A stretch of DNA of 19,425 nucleotides, from NCBI GenBank assembly GCA_947306025.1, contig CAMZFJ010000007.1:1-19425 (forward strand). The letters are read 5' to 3'. Position numbers and translations under genes: made by a program. Below the pieces are notes generated by a model. It saw only the letters and a list, made by a program, of their open reading frames with translations. It made no database searches and was not told the DNA's origin. Positions 6,098 through 15,335 of this stretch are shown piece by piece. Every line of letters begins with the position of its first letter. Within the stretch, counting starts at the first letter, position 1. The DNA comes from an uncultured Fibrobacter sp. Its GTDB lineage: Bacteria > Fibrobacterota > Fibrobacteria > Fibrobacterales > Fibrobacteraceae.

Positions 6098-8188
6098 TTA
6101 CTTTTTAATGCAACGGACGGACATATACGTGCGGGAACTTAAAAGAGAAGCCAGTCTATCGTCCTTTTTGACATCTGCACCAACTTGAATGGATTCAAAC
6201 CAAAACATTTCCGCTTTTCCCGTGCCCAAGTCAAGAGCAAGGCGTTTTCTGTCTTTAGTCGGGTTCATCCACAAGAAAGTCGCATAGCCCTGCCACGCCA
6301 ATTCATAGGGATCGACGCCAGCCGGGATTCTTCCAGAAAGAATAAAGCTCATGCCGTAAGTATCCGGAGCGGAGTAAGAACTCCCCGTGCCGCCCAGTTG
6401 AGAATAAAGTTCCATAAACTCAGCAGGATTGTATCCGAGATCCTTGACATCGCTCGAATCGGGCAATCTCCAGCCATCAGGACAAACTTCGCCAGCGACA
6501 TCGAAACTGTAGAAGCGGCCTACATTTTTGCAATCGTCTTCCAAGCAAGCAGTCGGCTTGTCATAATCAGCAACAAATGGGCCTTCGTACTTCATATTCT
6601 CGGCCATCCAAGTTTTGCCCTTGAACACGACGGTTCGGTAAACATGATGGTCGCGCGGGTCTTCGAATCGTCCATACTCAATATCGGGATTGAAATAGTA
6701 TTCAGCTGGATAATCCGTATGCCACTCGTATGTGGGGCGCCAAGTTTTATTATAGCAGATATATTCGGTAAACTTCGTACTAACTTTTTCATTAATGAGC
6801 TTGACGCGTTCATTGTCCGTTTCGCAGGGCATATTGAAAAATTCGGTCCATTTTCCATCATGGCACACATAATATAAGTTCGGGTCCTTGGGACTTTGGT
6901 ATGTAGCGCCTTCAGCATCGCAATCGGCTTTAGCAGTTTCGAAATCCTTTTGCTGCGCATAGTCCCAGCCTTTGTCAAAGCAAGGAGCGTTATGCGTGTA
7001 CACATCGTAATGCCTACAGAAAGATTCCGTTCGGCATACGTACGTGACATTCGGCCTGTTCGGGCTTTCGAAGAGTTTGCCGTGCTTATCGCAAGGGACA
7101 TCGAAAGTTTCGGCATCAATCGTTTCTACTTTACGCCAACCCCAACGCAAGCTGCACACGAATGAACTGTCAACTCGCTTCGAATAAACAACATACTTGC
7201 CTTCGCGATCACACGGAGTTCCGTATGTTTCGATTTCCATGTGCGTCGGGGCGGCCCAGCCATCGATCCTGCAAATAAACGGAGACAAATCCATTTCGCC
7301 GTAAATCGTCTTCGACCAGATTATCGTATCGCGAATGGAAATATCGCAAATCGGGAGATTCATGCACCTGCGCTTTGTCTCGTTGACGAGATCACGAGGG
7401 ATTGGGCGACCAGGGCCTAGCATACAACCCGTCGATACATAAGCACTGTTGTCGTACAAGGCATAGTCAGGGAAATCGCTGTTTTCGCCATACAACGAAA
7501 TGCCATCAATTCTTTTTTCTCTAAAGTAAACCAGCCCAGAGAAATTGCAGTAATGCTTCGGCTGAAGCGCGCCATTTTCTGTAAAGTAATTCTTCACGTC
7601 CTTGAAGAATTCGCTCTTGGTCGTTCCGCCAAAAATATCATCAAGTGCATAGTTGATTGCTTCGGTCGAATTTTCCGGTTTTGCACGGAGAACGGAATCG
7701 ATGCCAAGAGCAACAAAGAGTTCAGACTTCGCCTTAGCCTCGGCCTGCTCCGGTGTATTCCCGAATTCCGTAAGCTTTTTTATTCGACCTTCAAGGACGC
7801 TGTCGAGGGTAATCAGACTCGGCGGATTCCGGACAATCTCAGTTGTATCGGAAGTGAAATCATTCCTAGCATACCTAGACCAACTGCTAGCACCGTCCCC
7901 AACACAACCACCGCCATAATTCTGGAATCCGGCATTTTCACCAGCACTTGAACTAGAACCAGCGTTTATTATCAAGTTGCTAGAACTCGACACAACAAAA
8001 TTTGAATTTGAAGAAGGATTATCTTTTATAGCGGACTCGCCGTTCATACTATCCGACGACTGTCCATCAAAACTCAAAGAGCTCCCCTCCTGAGCAATAA
8101 CATCATCGCCGTTCACATCCGCAATGTTTTCTGACTCGGAGCAAGCAAATAACGCAGCCACCGAAAGCAGAAACGCAAATTTCCTCAT
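6098..8188 (-). CDS. FISUMP-domain lipoprotein (first copy)
   Basis: Predicted surface or periplasmic lipoprotein of 696 residues. ATG 8188 has a strong AAGGAGG site and opens a lipoprotein signal (LLSVAALFAC, lipid-modified Cys at 17). A Ser/Asn-rich linker (about 20-100) and an unrecognised helical region (about 110-290) follow. Next come about five Cys-containing repeats (about 320-500) of pattern C-[DE]-x-x-G/N-K ... Y-[VI]-C-x4-W. The C-terminal FISUMP domain (about 508-696) shows YRTVVFKGKTWMAENMKY, GRFYSFDVAGEVCPDGWRLP and the closing SVRCIKK. FISUMP domains are abundant in Fibrobacter and their function is unknown. The even Cys spacing suggests disulphides. A paralogue lies at 10263-12368, and an upstream element is shared with it. 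Confidence 0.88.
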   Translation of the reverse strand: MRKFAFLLSVAALFACSESENIADVNGDDVIAQEGSSLSFDGQSSDSMNGESAIKDNPSSNSNFVVSSSSNLIINAGSSSSAGENAGFQNYGGGCVGDGASSWSRYARNDFTSDTTEIVRNPPSLITLDSVLEGRIKKLTEFGNTPEQAEAKAKSELFVALGIDSVLRAKPENSTEAINYALDDIFGGTTKSEFFKDVKNYFTENGALQPKHYCNFSGLVYFREKRIDGISLYGENSDFPDYALYDNSAYVSTGCMLGPGRPIPRDLVNETKRRCMNLPICDISIRDTIIWSKTIYGEMDLSPFICRIDGWAAPTHMEIETYGTPCDREGKYVVYSKRVDSSFVCSLRWGWRKVETIDAETFDVPCDKHGKLFESPNRPNVTYVCRTESFCRHYDVYTHNAPCFDKGWDYAQQKDFETAKADCDAEGATYQSPKDPNLYYVCHDGKWTEFFNMPCETDNERVKLINEKVSTKFTEYICYNKTWRPTYEWHTDYPAEYYFNPDIEYGRFEDPRDHHVYRTVVFKGKTWMAENMKYEGPFVADYDKPTACLEDDCKNVGRFYSFDVAGEVCPDGWRLPDSSDVKDLGYNPAEFMELYSQLGGTGSSYSAPDTYGMSFILSGRIPAGVDPYELAWQGYATFLWMNPTKDRKRLALDLGTGKAEMFWFESIQVGADVKKDDRLASLLSSRTYMSVRCIKK

Positions 8189-8233
8189 CAATCCTCCTTC
8201 TACGCCACAGCACCCCAAAACAAACTCGTTGCT

Positions 8234-8254
8234 AAAATACATTCTTACAATTTG
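8234..8254 (-). promoter_or_regulatory. upstream element shared with the second FISUMP gene
   Basis: Minus strand: CCAAAT, eight bases, then TGTATTTT (an extended -10-like TG-TATTTT), ending 45 bases before the ATG at 8188. The same CCAAAT-N8-TGTATTTT occurs 50 bases before the paralogue's ATG. No good -35 was seen at either gene. Confidence 0.45.
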
Positions 8255-8375
8255 GCAAAATCAAAAAAAAACATAGTTACCAAAATAACCGTTGTGAACA
8301 ACACATTTTATACAAAAAGAGCGCGCCCCCAAAATAAACACCCCCAAGGCCCATATAAACAAGCAACCAAGCAGC

Positions 8376-8404
8376 TTGACACACTGCACAAATGTATCTA
8401 AATT
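8376..8404 (+). promoter_or_regulatory. recQ promoter
   Basis: A perfect TTGACA (8376-8381), a 17-base spacer and TAAATT (8399-8404) lie about 28 bases before the recQ ATG. This is the only plus-strand gene and the region is divergent with the FISUMP gene at 8188. The TTG inside this TTGACA can be misread as the start of recQ. Confidence 0.65.
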
Positions 8405-8432
8405 CTATAAAAATAAAATACAAAAGTACCCA

Positions 8433-10259
8433 ATGCAGACTCCGCTCCAAATATTAAAATCCATTTTCGGCTATAATTCTTTCCGACCGCAGCAAGAAGA
8501 AATCATCAACCACATTCTTTCACGGAAAGACGCGCTCGTACTAATGCCCACAGGTGGCGGCAAGTCGCTTTGCTACCAAATCCCCGCATTGGTCTTTGAA
8601 GGAACAACGGTAGTCATATCACCGCTCATCTCGTTAATGAAAGACCAAGTCGATGCGCTCAACGCCAGCGGAATCGCGGCGGCAGCCCTCAACAGCACCA
8701 ATTCCGAAGACGAAAACTTCGATATTCGAGCAAGGGCTCAATCCGGTGAATTGAAGATTCTCTACATTTCGCCGGAACGCCTGCAAAGAGAAATTCCATG
8801 GTTGCAACGGATAAACATCCCCTTGTTCGCCATCGACGAAGCGCACTGCATATCGCAATGGGGCCACGATTTTCGCCCAGAATACACGCAACTCGGTTGT
8901 TTGCACCAGAAGTTTCCTAAAGCCACCATCATGGCCTTAACGGCAACAGCAGACAAGATAACAAAAGAAGATATCATTAATCAACTAGGATTGATTTCGC
9001 ACAAAGTCTTTATCAGTTCGTTCGACAGGCCGAACTTAAGTCTCGATGTCAAGCGCGGCTATTCCGGGCAAGAAAAAATAAAGGCTATTTTATCCATAAT
9101 ATCAAAGCACAAAGGCGATTCCGGCATTGTTTATTGCCTATCGCGAAAGAACACCGAAAAAGTCGCCGACGAGTTATGCGCCAATAGAGTATTGGCAAGA
9201 GCGTACCATGCGGGAATGACCGCAGAAGAACGCAACGCCGTCCAGGAAGATTTTATCAACGATAAAATCGATGTCGTTTGTGCCACCATCGCATTCGGCA
9301 TGGGCATCGACAAAAGCAACGTTCGTTACGTTATCCACTACAATCTTCCCAAGAGCATTGAAAGCTTTTACCAAGAAATCGGCCGTGCGGGGCGCGACGG
9401 GCTCGCCTCAGAAACAGTGCTGTTCTACAATTTTCAGGACATCATCACACTGCGCAATTTTGTAAACGAAAGCGGGCAAAAAGAAATCAATTCCGAAAAG
9501 CTCGACCGCATGCAAGAATACGCCGAATCGCTAATTTGCCGCCGTCGAATTTTGCTCAATTACTTTGGCGAAAGCAGCAATGGCAATTGCGGGAACTGCG
9601 ACATTTGCCGAAAACCGCCCCAACGTTTTAACGGAACTATCCTCGTGCAAAAAGCGCTCTCGGCCATAAAGAGAACGAATGAGAAAATCGGATTTTCGAT
9701 GACCGCACAAATCCTCAAAGGCTTTAGCAGCGAAGAGATTGTGCAAAACGGTTACGACAAAATCAAAACTTTCGGAGTCGGCGCAGGCACCACGCTAAAG
9801 CATTGGCACGACTACCTTTTGCAAATGCTGCATTTGGGGTATATCGAAATTGCCTACAACGAAGGGAACCACTTAAAAATCACGCCGAGCGGAAACGCCG
9901 TACTATTCGGGAAAGAACGTGCCGAATTAGCCATTCCCGTTGAAAAAGAAACGGAAAAAGCAACCCGAACCACAAAAGCCAAAAGCAAACAAAAATACGA
10001 CAACAGCAAAAACTTCACGATTGAATCTGATGACAATAACGATTTATTTGAAGTTCTACGCAAAGTGCGCAGGCAAATTGCCGAAGAGAACAACTGGCCC
10101 GCATACGTCGTACTTTCTGACAAGACCTTAAGAGAAATAGTTTCAACGCCTCCCCTATCTATCGACGACCTGCACTACATTTACGGATTCGGCGAAAAGA
10201 AAATCGAATTGTTCGGGCAACGTTTCGTCGACGCCGTGAGGGATTATTTGAGGCAGTAA
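8433..10259 (+). CDS. recQ: ATP-dependent DNA helicase RecQ
   Basis: 3'-5' DNA helicase used in recombinational repair and restart of stalled forks. The 608 residues carry every domain of the classic enzyme. These are the Q/FRPQQ motif (17-21), Walker A MPTGGGKS (38-45), DEAH (135-138) within DEAHCISQWGHDFRPEY, and TATAD. Motifs V and VI follow (ATIAFGMGIDKSNVRYVIH and QEIGRAGRDG). The zinc site uses C369, C386, C389 and C392, followed by the winged-helix RQC region (about 400-495), a Lys-rich linker (about 503-525) and an HRDC domain (about 536-608). ATG 8433 is chosen because the family begins just before the helicase motifs and the promoter lies immediately upstream. There is no clear Shine-Dalgarno site. 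It ends 3 bases from the convergent FISUMP gene with no terminator between. Confidence 0.97.
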   Translation: MQTPLQILKSIFGYNSFRPQQEEIINHILSRKDALVLMPTGGGKSLCYQIPALVFEGTTVVISPLISLMKDQVDALNASGIAAAALNSTNSEDENFDIRARAQSGELKILYISPERLQREIPWLQRINIPLFAIDEAHCISQWGHDFRPEYTQLGCLHQKFPKATIMALTATADKITKEDIINQLGLISHKVFISSFDRPNLSLDVKRGYSGQEKIKAILSIISKHKGDSGIVYCLSRKNTEKVADELCANRVLARAYHAGMTAEERNAVQEDFINDKIDVVCATIAFGMGIDKSNVRYVIHYNLPKSIESFYQEIGRAGRDGLASETVLFYNFQDIITLRNFVNESGQKEINSEKLDRMQEYAESLICRRRILLNYFGESSNGNCGNCDICRKPPQRFNGTILVQKALSAIKRTNEKIGFSMTAQILKGFSSEEIVQNGYDKIKTFGVGAGTTLKHWHDYLLQMLHLGYIEIAYNEGNHLKITPSGNAVLFGKERAELAIPVEKETEKATRTTKAKSKQKYDNSKNFTIESDDNNDLFEVLRKVRRQIAEENNWPAYVVLSDKTLREIVSTPPLSIDDLHYIYGFGEKKIELFGQRFVDAVRDYLRQ

Positions 10260-10262
10260 TCT

Positions 10263-12368
10263 TTACTCCTTAACGCAACGAATTGGGACTAGCTCATCCA
10301 AGTCCACATAATAGAAGCCCTTGTCATTTGGGCCAAATCCAAAAGCCCAAATGTCTCCGGGATTTCGATAATCATAAGCCCAATACCTAGTATTTGTCGG
10401 ACCGCTTTCCGTGTTCGGCTTTTTGCTAGTGCCTAAAGGCAAGAATGAAGTTCCCTTCTCATTGCATTCAAACCCACTACAGATAGAGCCTATATGAGAC
10501 ACGAATTGTTCATAATAGCAGTTTTGCAAAAACATGGACAGACGGTCGTATTCACGAGTTTCCAAAGAATTGACATCGGCAGAATCAGGTAATTTCCAGC
10601 CAGCAGGGCAAGCGGTTTTAGCGGCATCCATCGAATAGAATCGTCCTGCAATTTCGCAGCCTTCTTCGACAGGAATACTTTGTGCAGGATCAGGCGTTAC
10701 GTATCTCAGGTTTTCAGCCATCCAAGTGACGCCATTGAATTCTACCGTCCTATAAACTTCACCATCGCGTTCATCTTTCAACGTTCCATAATCAATATCT
10801 GGATTTAAGTAATACTCCTTCGGGAAATCGCAACTCCATTTGCTGGATTGATGCCACTTGCCGTTATAGCAGATATAGTCATACAATCCACCTTTCCAAT
10901 CCTTGATTCTCTTGTTGTCCGTATCGCAAGGAGCATCGTAAAAATCTGCCCAGGCATTTTGATAGCACACATAAGACATATTCGTATCAAGGATACCCTT
11001 GATCGTTTTGCCCTCCACATCGCAAGTTCTGTCGCCAATGTCGGATTCCCTCTGGGTTGCGGTATCCCAGCCCGTATCGCGACAGATATAAAAGATTTTC
11101 CCCTTATAATCTCTGGTTTCGCTATCGATCATTTTGCCGATGCGGTCACAAGGAACATTCGTTGTCTTGATTTCAAACTGAGTTGCAATTTTCCATTTTG
11201 AATCTTTGCACAAATAAAACCTGGTAGAATCCGTCGGGCTCGGCAATAGCATTGTTGAATCGCCACAGGGAATGTCCTGCGTTTCATAATCCAACTTTGT
11301 CGCAATATTCCAGCCATCCGTTTTGCAAATGTAGTACCGTTCTTTTAAAGACGAACTCTTGAACACTTTACCGATTTTATCACAGGGAACATCCTTGGTA
11401 TCATCCTCATAATTCACTAGAAGCGTCCATCCCATTGTACCGCAGTAATAAAGCGAATCGCTAATGACATTCGCTAAACCGGCGCGCCTCACAGAACCGA
11501 ACAAGTCCGCATTGCAATAAGGGAGCCCGATGCATCTTCGATAGACATTGCCAATGATAAGCGTAGGAGCAACTTCTTCGTTACCACTGTGGAAACATCC
11601 TCGCGAAGCAAGATCCCTCACCCACACTCTTAATTTTTCATAAGGAGTGTAATATTTTTCTTCATTGCTCGCGCCCCAGCCCCGATTCATATTCCAAGTC
11701 GCATTCCAAATTCCGCAATATTCAGAACGATCGAGCGTTCCTTTTTCAGAAAACAATTGAGCAACGCTATAAAGCGTGACCGTATCATAACTAAAGATCA
11801 GGTTTAACGCATCTTCGACTTCGGCTCTTACAAAAGTGAATTCGCTAAACAAGGAATCCAGCCCCAAGACTGTGATAAATTCCCTCTTGGCTGTCTTTTC
11901 GGCCTCCTCCGCAGGGACCCCATCCGAGACGAGTTTTGCAGTTCGACCTTCAACAATCAACCTGTAAGGATAAATGTAATTTCCAGGAAGGGGTTGATCA
12001 GAAGGACGGAAACCGCCACCCCCATCAGAAGCCGCAACCGCACTAAATGCAGCACCGCATCCACCGCCAGAGCCAGGCGCACCAATATCTAGAAAGTCTA
12101 AATAATACGAGCTAGAGGAAGTTTGCGTTTCTTTGCCGCTGGACAAAACCGCCGTAACGGAAGAACTAGACGAAACGTTTTCTGTTGAACCACTGGATTC
12201 GCCCACACTTGAAGAAAGAGCTTCACCCGTCACCGAAGAACTTTCATCTATGCTCGACGAGCTCTCTTCTATGGCAACAACGTCCCCGTTATCAACATCC
12301 GCGATTTTTTCCGATTCCGAGCAAGCAATCAACGCCACAGCCAACAACGGAAATGCAAAATTTTTCAT
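10263..12368 (-). CDS. FISUMP-domain lipoprotein (second copy)
   Basis: A 701-residue paralogue of the lipoprotein at 6098-8188. ATG 12368 is preceded by AAGGGGG. The lipoprotein signal FPLLAVALIAC matches that of the first copy, as do the next residues (SESE.IADV). A longer Ser/Glu linker (about 30-90) is followed by an unrecognised region with RTAKLVSDGVPAEEAEKTAK, also paralleled in copy one. Five Cys repeats (about 345-520) follow, for example CDKIGKVFKSS...YYICKTDGW and CDRIGKMIDSE...FYICRDTGW. The FISUMP domain (about 532-701) shows YRTVEFNGVTWMAENLRY, GRFYSMDAAKTACPAGWKLP and the closing PIRCVKE. Function is unknown. It is probably displayed on the cell surface or in the periplasm. It runs towards recQ with a 3-base gap. 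Confidence 0.88.
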   Translation of the reverse strand: MKNFAFPLLAVALIACSESEKIADVDNGDVVAIEESSSSIDESSSVTGEALSSSVGESSGSTENVSSSSSVTAVLSSGKETQTSSSSYYLDFLDIGAPGSGGGCGAAFSAVAASDGGGGFRPSDQPLPGNYIYPYRLIVEGRTAKLVSDGVPAEEAEKTAKREFITVLGLDSLFSEFTFVRAEVEDALNLIFSYDTVTLYSVAQLFSEKGTLDRSEYCGIWNATWNMNRGWGASNEEKYYTPYEKLRVWVRDLASRGCFHSGNEEVAPTLIIGNVYRRCIGLPYCNADLFGSVRRAGLANVISDSLYYCGTMGWTLLVNYEDDTKDVPCDKIGKVFKSSSLKERYYICKTDGWNIATKLDYETQDIPCGDSTMLLPSPTDSTRFYLCKDSKWKIATQFEIKTTNVPCDRIGKMIDSETRDYKGKIFYICRDTGWDTATQRESDIGDRTCDVEGKTIKGILDTNMSYVCYQNAWADFYDAPCDTDNKRIKDWKGGLYDYICYNGKWHQSSKWSCDFPKEYYLNPDIDYGTLKDERDGEVYRTVEFNGVTWMAENLRYVTPDPAQSIPVEEGCEIAGRFYSMDAAKTACPAGWKLPDSADVNSLETREYDRLSMFLQNCYYEQFVSHIGSICSGFECNEKGTSFLPLGTSKKPNTESGPTNTRYWAYDYRNPGDIWAFGFGPNDKGFYYVDLDELVPIRCVKE

Positions 12369-12449: not shown

Positions 12450-12481
12450 AAAAAATCTCAACGCCCTGAATAAACGTTGAG
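12450..12481 (-). terminator. rho-independent terminator after the cold-shock/barnase gene
   Basis: Minus strand: CTCAACG (12475-12481) pairs perfectly with CGTTGAG (12457-12463) around an 11-base loop and is followed by ATTTTTT. It lies 50 bases after the stop at 12532 and separates the 15335-12532 cassette from the FISUMP gene. Confidence 0.85.
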
Positions 12482-12531
12482 AGTTACGCATTTTCACAAA
12501 GCGGCGAAACCAGCTAAAAAAAGGCAAATTT

Positions 12532-13275
12532 TTAAAAGTTCAACTTCACAAAAGACTCGTAATGATCGCTTGTGTAGTAAATGTTGCAACCGCTAGTATA
12601 AACTAAACGTCTGGGACCTCGGTTCGTTTCAAAATAGTCTACATCAGCTTCGCGATAATCGCCCGAAGGCAATTTTCCCTCGCGGTTGCTAAAACGATCA
12701 CCGCCAATCATCACGCCGAGAGTCCTCAACGGATTGAAATTCCAGCGTTCAAAACGTTTTCCCGTCTTGGATTCGTACATGCGGATACCTTCGCTCTTGC
12801 TGACGTAATTCGACGGCAAATAGCCATTATCGCAAATGTAACAAGCCACTTCATCTTTCGACGTGTACTTTGAATCGCTCACGCTCGTCCGTGTTGCGAT
12901 AACACTCGGCTGCGAAGAAGACGAACCCTGTTTACCGATAAGGGTGTAAGCGCCAGCAATCAAAGCAAGTACAACACACAAAGCTCTCATGAAATCGCGC
13001 ACAAGCCTTTGCTTGCGAGGGCGAGCAAAATGCGTTTGACGAGGACGCGAATTTTCAAGAGTCGAGACGCCTTCGATTAGTCCCTTCTCGATTCGAGGCC
13101 CCTTTTCACCCTTTCCAAACGAAGAAACGACAATCGTATCGCCAACGCGAGGAGCTCGAGACGGACGCCCAAGCGCACTCACATGCACAAAATACTTGAT
13201 TCCGTTTGCCGTTGCAAAACCGAACCCCTTTTCGTTATTCCACTGTATTATCGTCGCTTTATTTGTAATAGTCAT
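12532..13275 (-). CDS. cold-shock domain - membrane helix - barnase-type ribonuclease fusion
   Basis: A 247-residue fusion. Residues 1-70 form a cold-shock nucleic-acid-binding domain, with RNP1 KGFGFAT (16-22) and RNP2 YFVHVSA (28-34). A strongly basic stretch (about 84-97) leads into one membrane helix (about 97-114), then a Ser-rich linker. Residues 141-247 are a barnase/RNase Sa-type guanyl-preferring ribonuclease. NYVSKSE, GGDRFSNREGKLP, YREADVDY, RRLVYTS and TSDHYESF align with barnase blocks. The equivalents of Lys27, Arg59, Glu73, Arg87 and His102 appear as K160, R198, E209, R222/R223 and H238, so it should be active. Basic residues before the helix place the cold-shock domain in the cytoplasm and the RNase in the periplasm. 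No barstar is visible nearby. ATG 13275 lacks a clear ribosome site. It lies 27 bases after the NERD gene. GC content is much higher than in its upstream neighbours. Confidence 0.87.
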   Translation of the reverse strand: MTITNKATIIQWNNEKGFGFATANGIKYFVHVSALGRPSRAPRVGDTIVVSSFGKGEKGPRIEKGLIEGVSTLENSRPRQTHFARPRKQRLVRDFMRALCVVLALIAGAYTLIGKQGSSSSQPSVIATRTSVSDSKYTSKDEVACYICDNGYLPSNYVSKSEGIRMYESKTGKRFERWNFNPLRTLGVMIGGDRFSNREGKLPSGDYREADVDYFETNRGPRRLVYTSGCNIYYTSDHYESFVKLNF

Positions 13276-13302: not shown

Positions 13303-14052
13303 TTAATCTACCGACACCTTAAGCCATTCTGTCACTTGATTGGCAATAGAACGCACTTCTTCAATAGAAATAGATTCTTTAGAATTTTCAAAAAACTTTG
13401 GGAAACCACTCTCATTCAAAATCCAATATTTCGAAAAATCTCTTGCAGGATTTTCTATATAAGCACCAATAATGATTGCAACTTTTTGAATTGGATATGT
13501 TCGACCACACAATGATTCTAGTTTTTCAGAAATAAAACTAGCCTCACCATCCATTTGATTTAAAATCGTTTTACAAGGTCTACCATTAAACAAAAGTTTT
13601 CCATCTTGGTATAAAAATTTATATCCCCTTTTCCGATCATAATGTTTTGTTTCTATAGTAAATATTCCTCGAGTACTAATAATCACATGATCTACGTTAA
13701 AGCAGTCGCCACATACATCATGAAAGACTCTAATAGAATCAGAACTCATTTTATTTAGCATTTCACCAACAAGACGCTCTCCTTCCATTCCTTTATAGCA
13801 ATTTCTCATGTGCTTTATAAGCCTGCGCGATTTGCGAAATCCATAAATAAAAATTCCAATCGTAACTACAGAAAGAGTTATCGCAAACGTAAGATTTAAA
13901 TCTAAAACGCCAAAGTAGAACAGCCATACATAAAGCGTCAATAAGAAAAAAGCAAGGAAAAAACACCAAATACCCCAATAGCTCTCAGAATCGGCATCTA
14001 TTTTCTTTTGAAGCGATTCACCCTGAACATGCGTACGAAATTTCTTACCCAT
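13303..14052 (-). CDS. membrane-anchored NERD (nuclease-related) domain protein
   Basis: A 249-residue protein with two N-terminal membrane helices (about 26-48 and 53-71), then a NERD domain facing the cytoplasm (about 85-200). NERD is a PD-(D/E)XK-like fold. Visible candidate catalytic residues are the Glu of EGERLVGE (about 91-97), D121 of NVDHVIIS, and E134 with K136 of GIFTIETKHY. The C-terminal 50 residues are not recognised. NERD proteins are suspected to act on nucleic acids, and some occur in defence islands, but most are uncharacterised. The ATG lies 2 bases after the stop of the TM2/OB gene, so it is co-translated. Sampled 60-base stretches are 27-28% GC, far below neighbours such as the barnase fusion (57% in one stretch), which suggests acquisition. 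The next gene is the barnase fusion. Confidence 0.82.
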   Translation of the reverse strand: MGKKFRTHVQGESLQKKIDADSESYWGIWCFFLAFFLLTLYVWLFYFGVLDLNLTFAITLSVVTIGIFIYGFRKSRRLIKHMRNCYKGMEGERLVGEMLNKMSSDSIRVFHDVCGDCFNVDHVIISTRGIFTIETKHYDRKRGYKFLYQDGKLLFNGRPCKTILNQMDGEASFISEKLESLCGRTYPIQKVAIIIGAYIENPARDFSKYWILNESGFPKFFENSKESISIEEVRSIANQVTEWLKVSVD

Positions 14053-14054
14053 AA

Positions 14055-14918
14055 CTACTTATCCTTTTGTTGCCTTTTATAAATTTGTTTTACGCTGCAT
14101 TTATCAGCAGAATATGTACCACGGGAAAGGCCTCGACCTATACAATTCGCGACAATTCCATCACCTTTACGTACTTCATTTAATTTTCCTGCTTGTTTTT
14201 TAGGGAAAGTCAATTCTATTTCAGTAACTTTACTACCCAAATTGAAAATATTTATTCCTCCAAGCCCTTCAAATTTAACAACATAATCGCCCCAAAGATC
14301 TTTTTCAACACCCCTAACAGGTCCTACTATAGAAAATCGTTTTCCCTCAAAGGTTTCTTCAGCAACAGCCTCATTCTGATTATACGTATCAACAATTTCT
14401 CTTGCACTAGCAAGTTTTCCAGTATCCTTTTTTCGTTCATCAAAAAAGTCAAACCCCGCCGAAACAAGAAGTTTAATCGCAACAACAAAATATATAAGAG
14501 CGAAAAAATCATTCAATCCTTTGGCTACAGGAGAAGACTCCTTATTCTTAAAAAAACTCCCATTTTCAATAGCAATCAAATCGGAAAGTACCCAAAAGCT
14601 CAACACAGCCAATATCAAGGAAGAAATAACATAATGATCATTTTTATTCAATAGAAATGTAAACGCAAACAAGCCCCATTTAGCAAAACCACGGCCATTC
14701 TCACCCCAATTAAAATCATGTATACCAACTACCCCAAACAATCCTGCAACAATCGTTGCTGAAGTTCTACTTATCTTGGGTACATCTGCTATTGGAGGAT
14801 TAACTCGTTCATGGAAATCTGTTTTATTTTCTTTTGAATTAGATTCTTCAGCATATTCTTTCGGCGGAACAAAACCATTTTCCTTTTCCCTCAACCATTT
14901 ATTTGCCAAATCAGCCAT
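14055..14918 (-). CDS. TM2-domain / OB-fold membrane protein, C-terminal part of a PH-TM2-OB protein
   Basis: A 287-residue piece, in frame with the PH-domain piece at 14958-15335 and separated from it by TAG plus 13 sense codons. Residues 1-12 (MADLANKWLREK), together with IVVDNCEKEAVKV just upstream, complete the last strand and helix of that PH domain, so this Met is probably internal. A TM2 domain follows (about 50-115), with GLFGVVGIHDF and the small-loop motif GENGRGFAKWG. A further membrane helix lies at about 137-154. The C-terminal OB-fold resembles the tRNA_anti-like family (about 168-278: YNQNEAVAEETFEGKRFSIV, then VRKGDGIVANCIGRG and a closing Cys). Function is unknown. The gene is AT-rich (28% GC in a sampled stretch) and adjoins the NERD gene by 2 bases. 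Confidence 0.75.
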   Translation of the reverse strand: MADLANKWLREKENGFVPPKEYAEESNSKENKTDFHERVNPPIADVPKISRTSATIVAGLFGVVGIHDFNWGENGRGFAKWGLFAFTFLLNKNDHYVISSLILAVLSFWVLSDLIAIENGSFFKNKESSPVAKGLNDFFALIYFVVAIKLLVSAGFDFFDERKKDTGKLASAREIVDTYNQNEAVAEETFEGKRFSIVGPVRGVEKDLWGDYVVKFEGLGGINIFNLGSKVTEIELTFPKKQAGKLNEVRKGDGIVANCIGRGLSRGTYSADKCSVKQIYKRQQKDK

Positions 14919-14957
14919 AACCTTAACAGCTTCTTTTTCGCAATTGTCAACAACAAT

Positions 14958-15335
14958 CTATCGACTACCCAAATCGATTGATATTTTCCCTAATAGAAAT
15001 CCTTGCGAAGCAGAAATAGCCTGAACTTTACCTAATCGAACTGACTGTGTATCTATAGACGAAGTCAGCAAAGCTGCATCCATAAATAAAAAACGTTCGG
15101 AAGTCAAAACAACAAGCCATGTATTTACACCAGAGTCTGAAAAATTTGACGTTCCCGTTTGTTTCATCAAACCGGATGCTAAGGCAAAAACAACCTCACC
15201 AGATTCAAGATATTTTGGTAAAGCCTCGAATTCTTTATTTGTACCGAAAGAATCAAAATGTACTCCATTCAATTCGCAAATACCACGCCAATCCGCTTTT
15301 TCAGTCAATAATCTATAACGAGCGTAATCAAACAT
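14958..15335 (-). CDS. PH-like domain protein, N-terminal part cut by in-frame TAG
   Basis: 125 residues before a TAG. The segment from about residue 35 (LPKYLESGEVVFALASG, then WLVVLTSERFLFMD, then GFLLGKISIDLG) is a bacterial pleckstrin-homology-like domain of the YokE type, used for membrane or protein contacts. It lacks the final strand and C-terminal helix of the fold. Exactly those elements follow in the same frame after the stop (IVVDN, then a helix ending KWLREKE). The intact gene therefore probably encoded a 426-codon PH-TM2-OB protein ending at 14055. The start at 15335 is supported by GGAG about 7 bases upstream. It is first in the cassette that continues with the NERD and barnase genes. 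Confidence 0.7.
   Translation of the reverse strand: MFDYARYRLLTEKADWRGICELNGVHFDSFGTNKEFEALPKYLESGEVVFALASGLMKQTGTSNFSDSGVNTWLVVLTSERFLFMDAALLTSSIDTQSVRLGKVQAISASQGFLLGKISIDLGSR

Follow-up and report, generated by a model that had tools for sequence, protein, structure and literature searches.

A cold-shock-type domain and an active-looking barnase domain joined through a predicted membrane helix in Fibrobacter

A gene on the minus strand of a 19,425-nucleotide stretch of DNA from an uncultured Fibrobacter sp. (contig CAMZFJ010000007.1; hereafter, the window) encodes a 247-amino-acid protein in which a cold-shock fold and a complete barnase domain are combined with a single predicted membrane helix (open reading frame at 12532..13275). 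From the N terminus, its features on the minus strand are a cold-shock-type OB domain (residues 4-70; 13066..13266) with the conserved residues W12, F18, F20, F29 and H31, a predicted membrane helix that would act as a signal anchor with its N terminus inside (residues 91-113; 12937..13005), a serine-rich, low-confidence linker under relaxed selection (residues 114-135; 12871..12936), and a barnase-type ribonuclease (RNase) domain (residues 136-247; 12535..12870). Residues 112-134 lie below a pLDDT of 50 in the structure model. This three-part layout, proposed in a preliminary description of the DNA, is borne out; the CSD, helix and barnase domain are conserved and jointly under selection.

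A search returned 204 homologs, of which at least 98 among the 120 listed cover at least 98% of the query. The same fusion, near full length, occurs at 22 loci in 21 of 167 Fibrobacterota genomes, 75 of which contain some match. These full-length homologs exclude the possibility that the two domains are separate genes joined by an assembly artifact. Where database names are given, they read "ribonuclease domain-containing protein" or "cold shock CspA family protein"; existing database annotation thus covers one of the two halves at a time. Scanning genome contigs yielded 60 loci, 16 of which encode the whole fusion (L001-L015 and L017), while L016 encodes a helix-anchored barnase without the cold-shock domain (CSD). 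For the remaining loci (L018-L060), the N terminus could be checked in 39 and is lipobox-like in 35; three of the four misses (L018, L020 and L038) have a cysteine after a hydrophobic stretch when read by eye. By record title, the loci are assigned to Fibrobacter or to another group of Fibrobacterota; the exception is L029, a lipoprotein locus in a bin labeled Bacteroidales. Among the listed homologs, P0102-P0120 are helix-anchored, CSD-less barnases or truncated fusions. One further copy (L106, genome G090), in which an internal deletion joins the CSD to the end of the barnase domain, has probably decayed.

Both halves are under purifying selection. Between the window and L001, the ratio of nonsynonymous to synonymous substitution rates (dN/dS) equals 0.061 for the CSD, 0.055 for the helix and 0.055 for the barnase domain, in contrast to 0.54 and 0.275 for the two linkers. 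The latter value refers to residues 115-135, which reach 0.53 between the window and L002. Over 11 pairs, dN/dS ranges from 0.024 to 0.144 for the CSD and from 0.022 to 0.111 for the barnase domain, with 0.12 to 0.82 for the linkers where computable.

The microbial ribonuclease family PF00545 was called over its cut-off (52.6 bits versus 24), as the preliminary description had anticipated, and is the sole Pfam call at an E value of at most 0.001. A sequence search of solved structures retrieved barnase (E value, 3.7e-15), and residues 136-247 show the barnase fold. The residues K27, R59, E73, R83, R87 and H102, which we take to be the catalytic set of barnase, align to K160, R198, E209, R219, R223 and H238. 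An intact set had been described earlier; K160, R198, E209, R223 and H238 stand, whereas the equivalent of R83 is R219 and not R222. Across 99 fusions (the window protein and 98 homologs), K160, E209, R219, R223, H238 and Y239 are invariant, including the positions of barnase K27 (K160; 12796..12798, minus strand), the catalytic base E73 (E209; 12649..12651, minus strand) and the catalytic acid H102 (H238; 12562..12564, minus strand). The R198 position is arginine in 95 fusions, histidine in two, serine in one and lysine in one; among 44 loci without a CSD, the R59 position is arginine in only seven. The domain looks active, and RNase activity is predicted from its sequence.

By score, the domain assigned earlier as cold-shock is not a member of the Pfam family PF00313 (15.5 bits versus a cut-off of 27, with a match spanning residues 8-36 only), but the OB fold and RNP residues are present; because of the low score, the domain is named cold-shock-type here. 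The five-strand OB fold of cold-shock proteins was recovered, and the sequence search of solved structures matched a cold-shock protein (E value, 0.0048). The assignment is further supported by profile homology to the first halves of CSD-Excalibur proteins, described below. Residues W12, F18, F20, F29 and H31 are the aromatic and histidine positions of RNP1 and RNP2. Among the 99 fusions, W12 and F20 are invariant, F18 is kept in 96 (tyrosine in three), F29 in 98 (isoleucine in one) and H31 in 98 (cysteine in one). The domain thus appears to keep its nucleic-acid-binding face, and RNA binding is predicted. A canonical cold-shock protein over the Pfam cut-off occurs in 42 of the 167 Fibrobacterota genomes and in none of the 21 fusion genomes, although many of these are drafts. 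The fusion may therefore be the main recognizable cold-shock-type domain of its carriers.

Several lines of evidence agree on a predicted topology with the N terminus inside and the C terminus outside, which is in line with the earlier placement of the CSD in the cytoplasm and the RNase in the periplasm. First, following the positive-inside rule, 96 of 97 homologs have more positive charge in the 15 residues ahead of the helix than in the 15 that follow, with one tie. Second, the other large branch of Fibrobacter barnases consists of lipoproteins, as judged by the 35 lipobox-like N termini. Third, two cysteines of the barnase domain, the putative disulfide partners C148 (12832..12834, minus strand) and C230 (12586..12588, minus strand), are present together in all 99 fusions. 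Among 62 other scorable sequences (lipoproteins, CSD-less barnases and truncated fusions; L050, L059, P0098 and P0113 could not be scored), 57 have both and five have neither. The two positions are thus concordant in 161 of 161 sequences, some of which may be the same protein under a P and an L entry. Disulfides usually form outside the cytoplasm, and such joint presence or absence, as expected of a disulfide, supports an extracytoplasmic barnase domain. Finally, Excalibur is found as an alternative to barnase as the outer domain in sibling proteins. This last line is suggestive only, as the accessible text of PMC4679880 cautions that proteins with Excalibur are not necessarily extracellular.

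The distribution of barstar fits this placement. Barnase itself is secreted in free form and paired with barstar, which a cytoplasmic barnase would need. No barstar was called among the window neighbors scanned (10263-12368 and 13303-15335), and none exceeded the cut-off in 20 of the 21 fusion genomes. In contrast, a barstar gene lies directly downstream of an Aerococcus barnase.

The sibling proteins were recognized among ten places in the Fibrobacterota genomes that match the first half of the fusion only and were read individually. Three of these (L097, L098 and L099) carry a C-terminal Excalibur domain over the cut-off, giving a CSD-helix-Excalibur layout. Three others (L100, L101 and L103) end shortly past the helix and have no outer domain; by eye, their RNP motifs are eroded, and they are nested among the barnase fusions on a long branch. 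The remaining places are the internally deleted fusion copy L106, an ordinary cold-shock protein (L105) and two, L102 and L104, that yielded no usable match. No Excalibur domain was called in the window protein itself, where only PF00545 and a subthreshold CSD were found.

A search with L097 yielded 433 homologs, and both PF00313 and PF05901 (Excalibur) were called in 95 of the 120 listed. The listed homologs also include three Excalibur proteins without a cold-shock half and 22 proteins of Fibrobacterota type (P0121-P0142), so called from their position in the tree. All eight organism-named proteins among the 95 derive from Pseudomonadota, including Shewanella, Agarivorans, Stenotrophomonas and Ideonella. 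The first halves of 27 fusions align with those of L097 and 24 of the 95 in hhalign over the CSD, linker and helix (probability, 99.7; E value, 1.5e-26), with an Excalibur profile that holds one Fibrobacterota sequence and a reported span that extends past the helix.

Two trees place these proteins relative to each other. The first-half tree (76 rows, 124 columns) contains the window protein, 24 of the 98 full-length homologs, 21 of the 22 listed Fibrobacterota-type Excalibur proteins and three loci, together with three CSD-only loci and 24 of the 95 other listed CSD-Excalibur proteins. All Fibrobacterota rows form one clade (100/100), within which the barnase fusions form another (95/85) that has the CSD-only proteins nested inside it. 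The barnase-domain tree (80 rows, 112 columns) includes the window protein and 28 fusions; P0105, P0110 and P0120, which start inside the helix, and L037, L042, L050 and L059, with cut or displaced starts, were left out. Here, the lipoproteins are separated from the rest by a branch (100/98), and helix-anchored barnases without a CSD fall among the fusions. The simplest story is that CSD-helix-Excalibur is the older form, in which Excalibur was swapped once for barnase, followed by later losses of either half. The incoming domain would have been akin to the exported lipoprotein RNases of Fibrobacter.

The preliminary description knew of no described system with this layout, but that view is not supported. 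According to the accessible text of PMC4679880, the CSD-Excalibur architecture (CSP-Excalibur) occurs in 301 proteins, 298 of them proteobacterial; L097-L099 lie outside that group. These proteins resemble the fusion in having an N-terminal CSD, a linker, a single helix and a small C-terminal domain, and they are homologous to it over the first three parts. Unlike in the fusion, the C-terminal domain is not an enzyme but the calcium-binding Excalibur domain, the membrane side of which is not established in the text of PMC4679880. A further CSD architecture appears in the same text under the name DUF1264. A CSD-DUF1294 protein also exists (P0349, with PF00313 and PF06961), and, read by eye, L120 in the Fibrobacterota genome G151 is similar. 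L120 was among ten long-frame candidates resolved out of 20 for other CSD fusions in deep Fibrobacterota, the other nine being short. Likened by domain layout, these proteins share the N-terminal CSD ahead of membrane helices but differ in having several helices and no enzyme domain. Among the 120 listed of 177 matches to the CSD-helix chassis, which lie close to the query, the outer domains are Excalibur and one DUF1294, with a few CSD-only proteins; no nuclease was seen. Only the barnase version of the layout thus appears undescribed, and a literature search of open-licence papers found no description of a CSD-barnase fusion.

Other known systems share single traits with the fusion. Barnase and binase (PF00545) have the same fold and catalytic residues, but in the fusion the RNase is attached to a membrane helix, has a conserved pair of cysteines and occurs in 20 of 21 genomes without a barstar over the cut-off. 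The Fibrobacter lipoprotein barnases (most of L018-L060) form the sister branch of the RNase domain, with a lipobox and a serine-rich linker in place of the CSD and helix. Like the fusion, the membrane nucleases RNase Y and those of the EndA type are held at the membrane through a helix at their N terminus. However, RNase Y acts in the cytoplasm, and we know of no RNA-binding domain on the opposite membrane side of EndA. CoCoNuT systems, in the accessible text of PMC11090510, bring cold-shock-like OB and RNase-toxin-like domains together in one system; these are of McrBC type with coiled coils, and a split of both domains across a membrane is not described in that text.

A CSD and an active-looking RNase on predicted opposite faces of a membrane, in much of a genus of gut bacteria in which the protein is conserved, are hard to explain by standard roles. 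We consider it probable (about 0.6) that the protein is a signal-anchored, N-in/C-out RNase of the inner membrane that faces the periplasm; its CSD would bind cellular RNA as a tether or tuner. The uncleaved helix would carry the barnase domain across the inner membrane, where a C148-C230 disulfide would close it and the flexible serine-rich linker would keep it near the membrane. There, it could cut single-stranded RNA arriving from lysed neighbors, vesicles, phage or transfer debris. Because RNA would be cut in the periplasm, a cytoplasmic barstar would not be needed. The CSD would remain in the cytoplasm with its nucleic-acid-binding face retained, and we infer cellular RNA as its most likely ligand, possibly the protein's own mRNA or transcripts associated with the membrane, through which it would tether or tune the enzyme. 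An RNA-linked sensor, an envelope barrier against incoming RNA and a precursor released by cleavage, the roles offered in the preliminary description, are candidate functions.

A number of observations weigh against this interpretation. RNase activity, RNA binding and topology are all predictions, and neither half strictly needs the other, because CSD-only forms and CSD-less membrane barnases both exist. The linkers do not evolve faster in every pair (between L011 and L013, linker 71-93 has a dN/dS of 0.117 versus 0.144 for the CSD). In effect, the cysteine pattern amounts to a single event, as the five sequences with neither residue (L051, L053, L056, L057 and L058) form one clade (100/98). 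The sole barstar over the cut-off in the 167 genomes sits in a fusion genome (G081), although on a different contig from the fusion, and a second fusion genome (G003) has two matches below the cut-off (19.9 and 17.5 bits). As for the history, support for the clade of Fibrobacterota Excalibur proteins is weak (85/31), the CSD-only rows are on a flagged long branch, the root assumes that the other CSD-Excalibur proteins are an outgroup, each tree is built on few columns and bootstrapping of the barnase-domain tree had not settled.

The main rival, which we regard as unlikely, is that the protein is a precursor, with the helix and cold-shock half serving as a carrier from which a linker protease frees a periplasmic or secreted RNase. 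The low-confidence, serine-rich and fast-evolving linker after the helix would suit such cleavage, and the existence of lipoprotein relatives shows that the enzyme domain is also found apart from this chassis. However, a freed enzyme has no obvious need for a CSD held at a dN/dS of 0.06, and the CSD-less versions retain the membrane helix. Regulation across the membrane, in which nucleic acid on the cytoplasmic CSD alters the activity of the periplasmic domain or the reverse, is less probable still. The pairing of one cytoplasmic half with barnase, Excalibur or nothing recalls modular signaling proteins, but one helix flanked by linkers of low confidence would be a poor conduit for conformational signals, and no conserved partner operon is present (a PH/OB gene lies upstream in four of 18 neighborhoods, with less than 1.6 kb upstream visible in five).

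On a par with the latter, and thus speculative, is a broader proposal that the CSD-helix half is a general trans-envelope nucleic-acid chassis, on which exchangeable outer domains process or sense nucleic acid or cations at the surface, together with an inner CSD that captures single-stranded fragments or reads the state of RNA. If so, the barnase version would be a two-sided device for RNA salvage or sensing in which one side cuts and the other binds. Hundreds of CSD-Excalibur proteins, the majority from Proteobacteria, share this N-terminal half (301 in the accessible text of PMC4679880; 433 homologs of L097). For these, a literature search of open-licence papers found no function. An enzyme on this chassis offers a handle, as its RNase activity can be used to probe the role of the cold-shock half.

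Barnase domains are known as toxin tips, and the variable neighborhoods, such as an ABC-transporter operon in Fibrobacter intestinalis (L012, by eye), would also fit an interbacterial toxin delivered to rivals, with the membrane half as a producer-side anchor. This is highly improbable, however: no toxin-delivery domain was found in the Pfam and domain calls of the fusion protein, barstar is missing beside the fusion in the window and exceeds the cut-off in one of 167 genomes, unlike next to the Aerococcus barnase, and homology links the N-terminal half to CSD-Excalibur proteins, for which we know of no toxin role. That the fusion reflects chance or annotation, its halves lacking a functional link, is scarcely credible and was rejected given the 98 full-length proteins among the 120 listed homologs, the purifying selection on both halves and the finding of only one clearly deleted copy (L106) among those read, even though CSD-only and helix-anchored barnase-only versions both occur.

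The window is Fibrobacter-like, with a Fib_succ_major domain in two genes, and its flanks are syntenic with L001, a Fibrobacter succinogenes metagenome genome (HisB, 99.5% identical; HD protein, 100% identical). On the minus strand, a PH/OB membrane gene is followed by a NERD gene and the fusion gene. The NERD-domain membrane protein (13303..14052, minus strand) ends 27 bases upstream of the fusion gene. The PH/OB gene forms one frame of 416-454 amino acids in L001, L002 and L015, while the window copy (14055-15335, minus strand) is split by an in-frame stop into a first half with a bacterial PH domain (14958..15335) and a second half encoding a membrane protein with a tRNA_anti-like OB domain (14055..14918); apart from the stop, both halves align with L001. 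The window, L001, L002 and L015 have a PH/OB gene upstream of the fusion, as a direct neighbor only in L015; it was not seen in the other 14 of 18 loci, five of which (L005, L006, L008, L009 and L010) show less than 1.6 kb upstream. A conserved operon function was consequently rejected, as neighbors vary between loci.

A terminator-like hairpin 3' of the fusion gene (12456..12482, minus strand) is a consensus match only; such sites are not significantly enriched in the window (six versus 3.2 in shuffles; standard deviation, 2.0). Promoter-like sites are likewise not significant (five versus 7.4 expected), and a search for an RNA element near the fusion gene gave no Rfam match in the window. 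Recombination of the locus was also rejected: synonymous divergence (dS) of the fusion gene between the window and L001 is 0.75, above that of the flanking genes (0.20-0.69) yet not clearly out of range. Two scans of viral contigs (three and 43 pattern matches) revealed no relative and a phage collection no match, arguing against a viral or phage origin, and spread of the whole fusion on plasmids was discounted, as none of four matching plasmid records covers more than 61% of the query. For the Shewanella CSD-Excalibur protein P0228, 94 plasmid records match, 60 of them from Acinetobacter and 67 over at least 80% of P0228; in an Aeromonas plasmid, a MobH relaxase gene is located close to the match.

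Between its PH/OB gene and fusion, L001 has two different NERD-domain genes (7639-8631 and 8628-9773), and the window has another NERD gene at this position, possibly a variable slot for NERD proteins. In L012 (9135-11907), read by eye, the fusion gene has an ABC-2-type permease gene on one side and an ABC ATPase gene on the other; an antitoxin-like gene is adjacent, and the arrangement looks like an insertion into an export operon.
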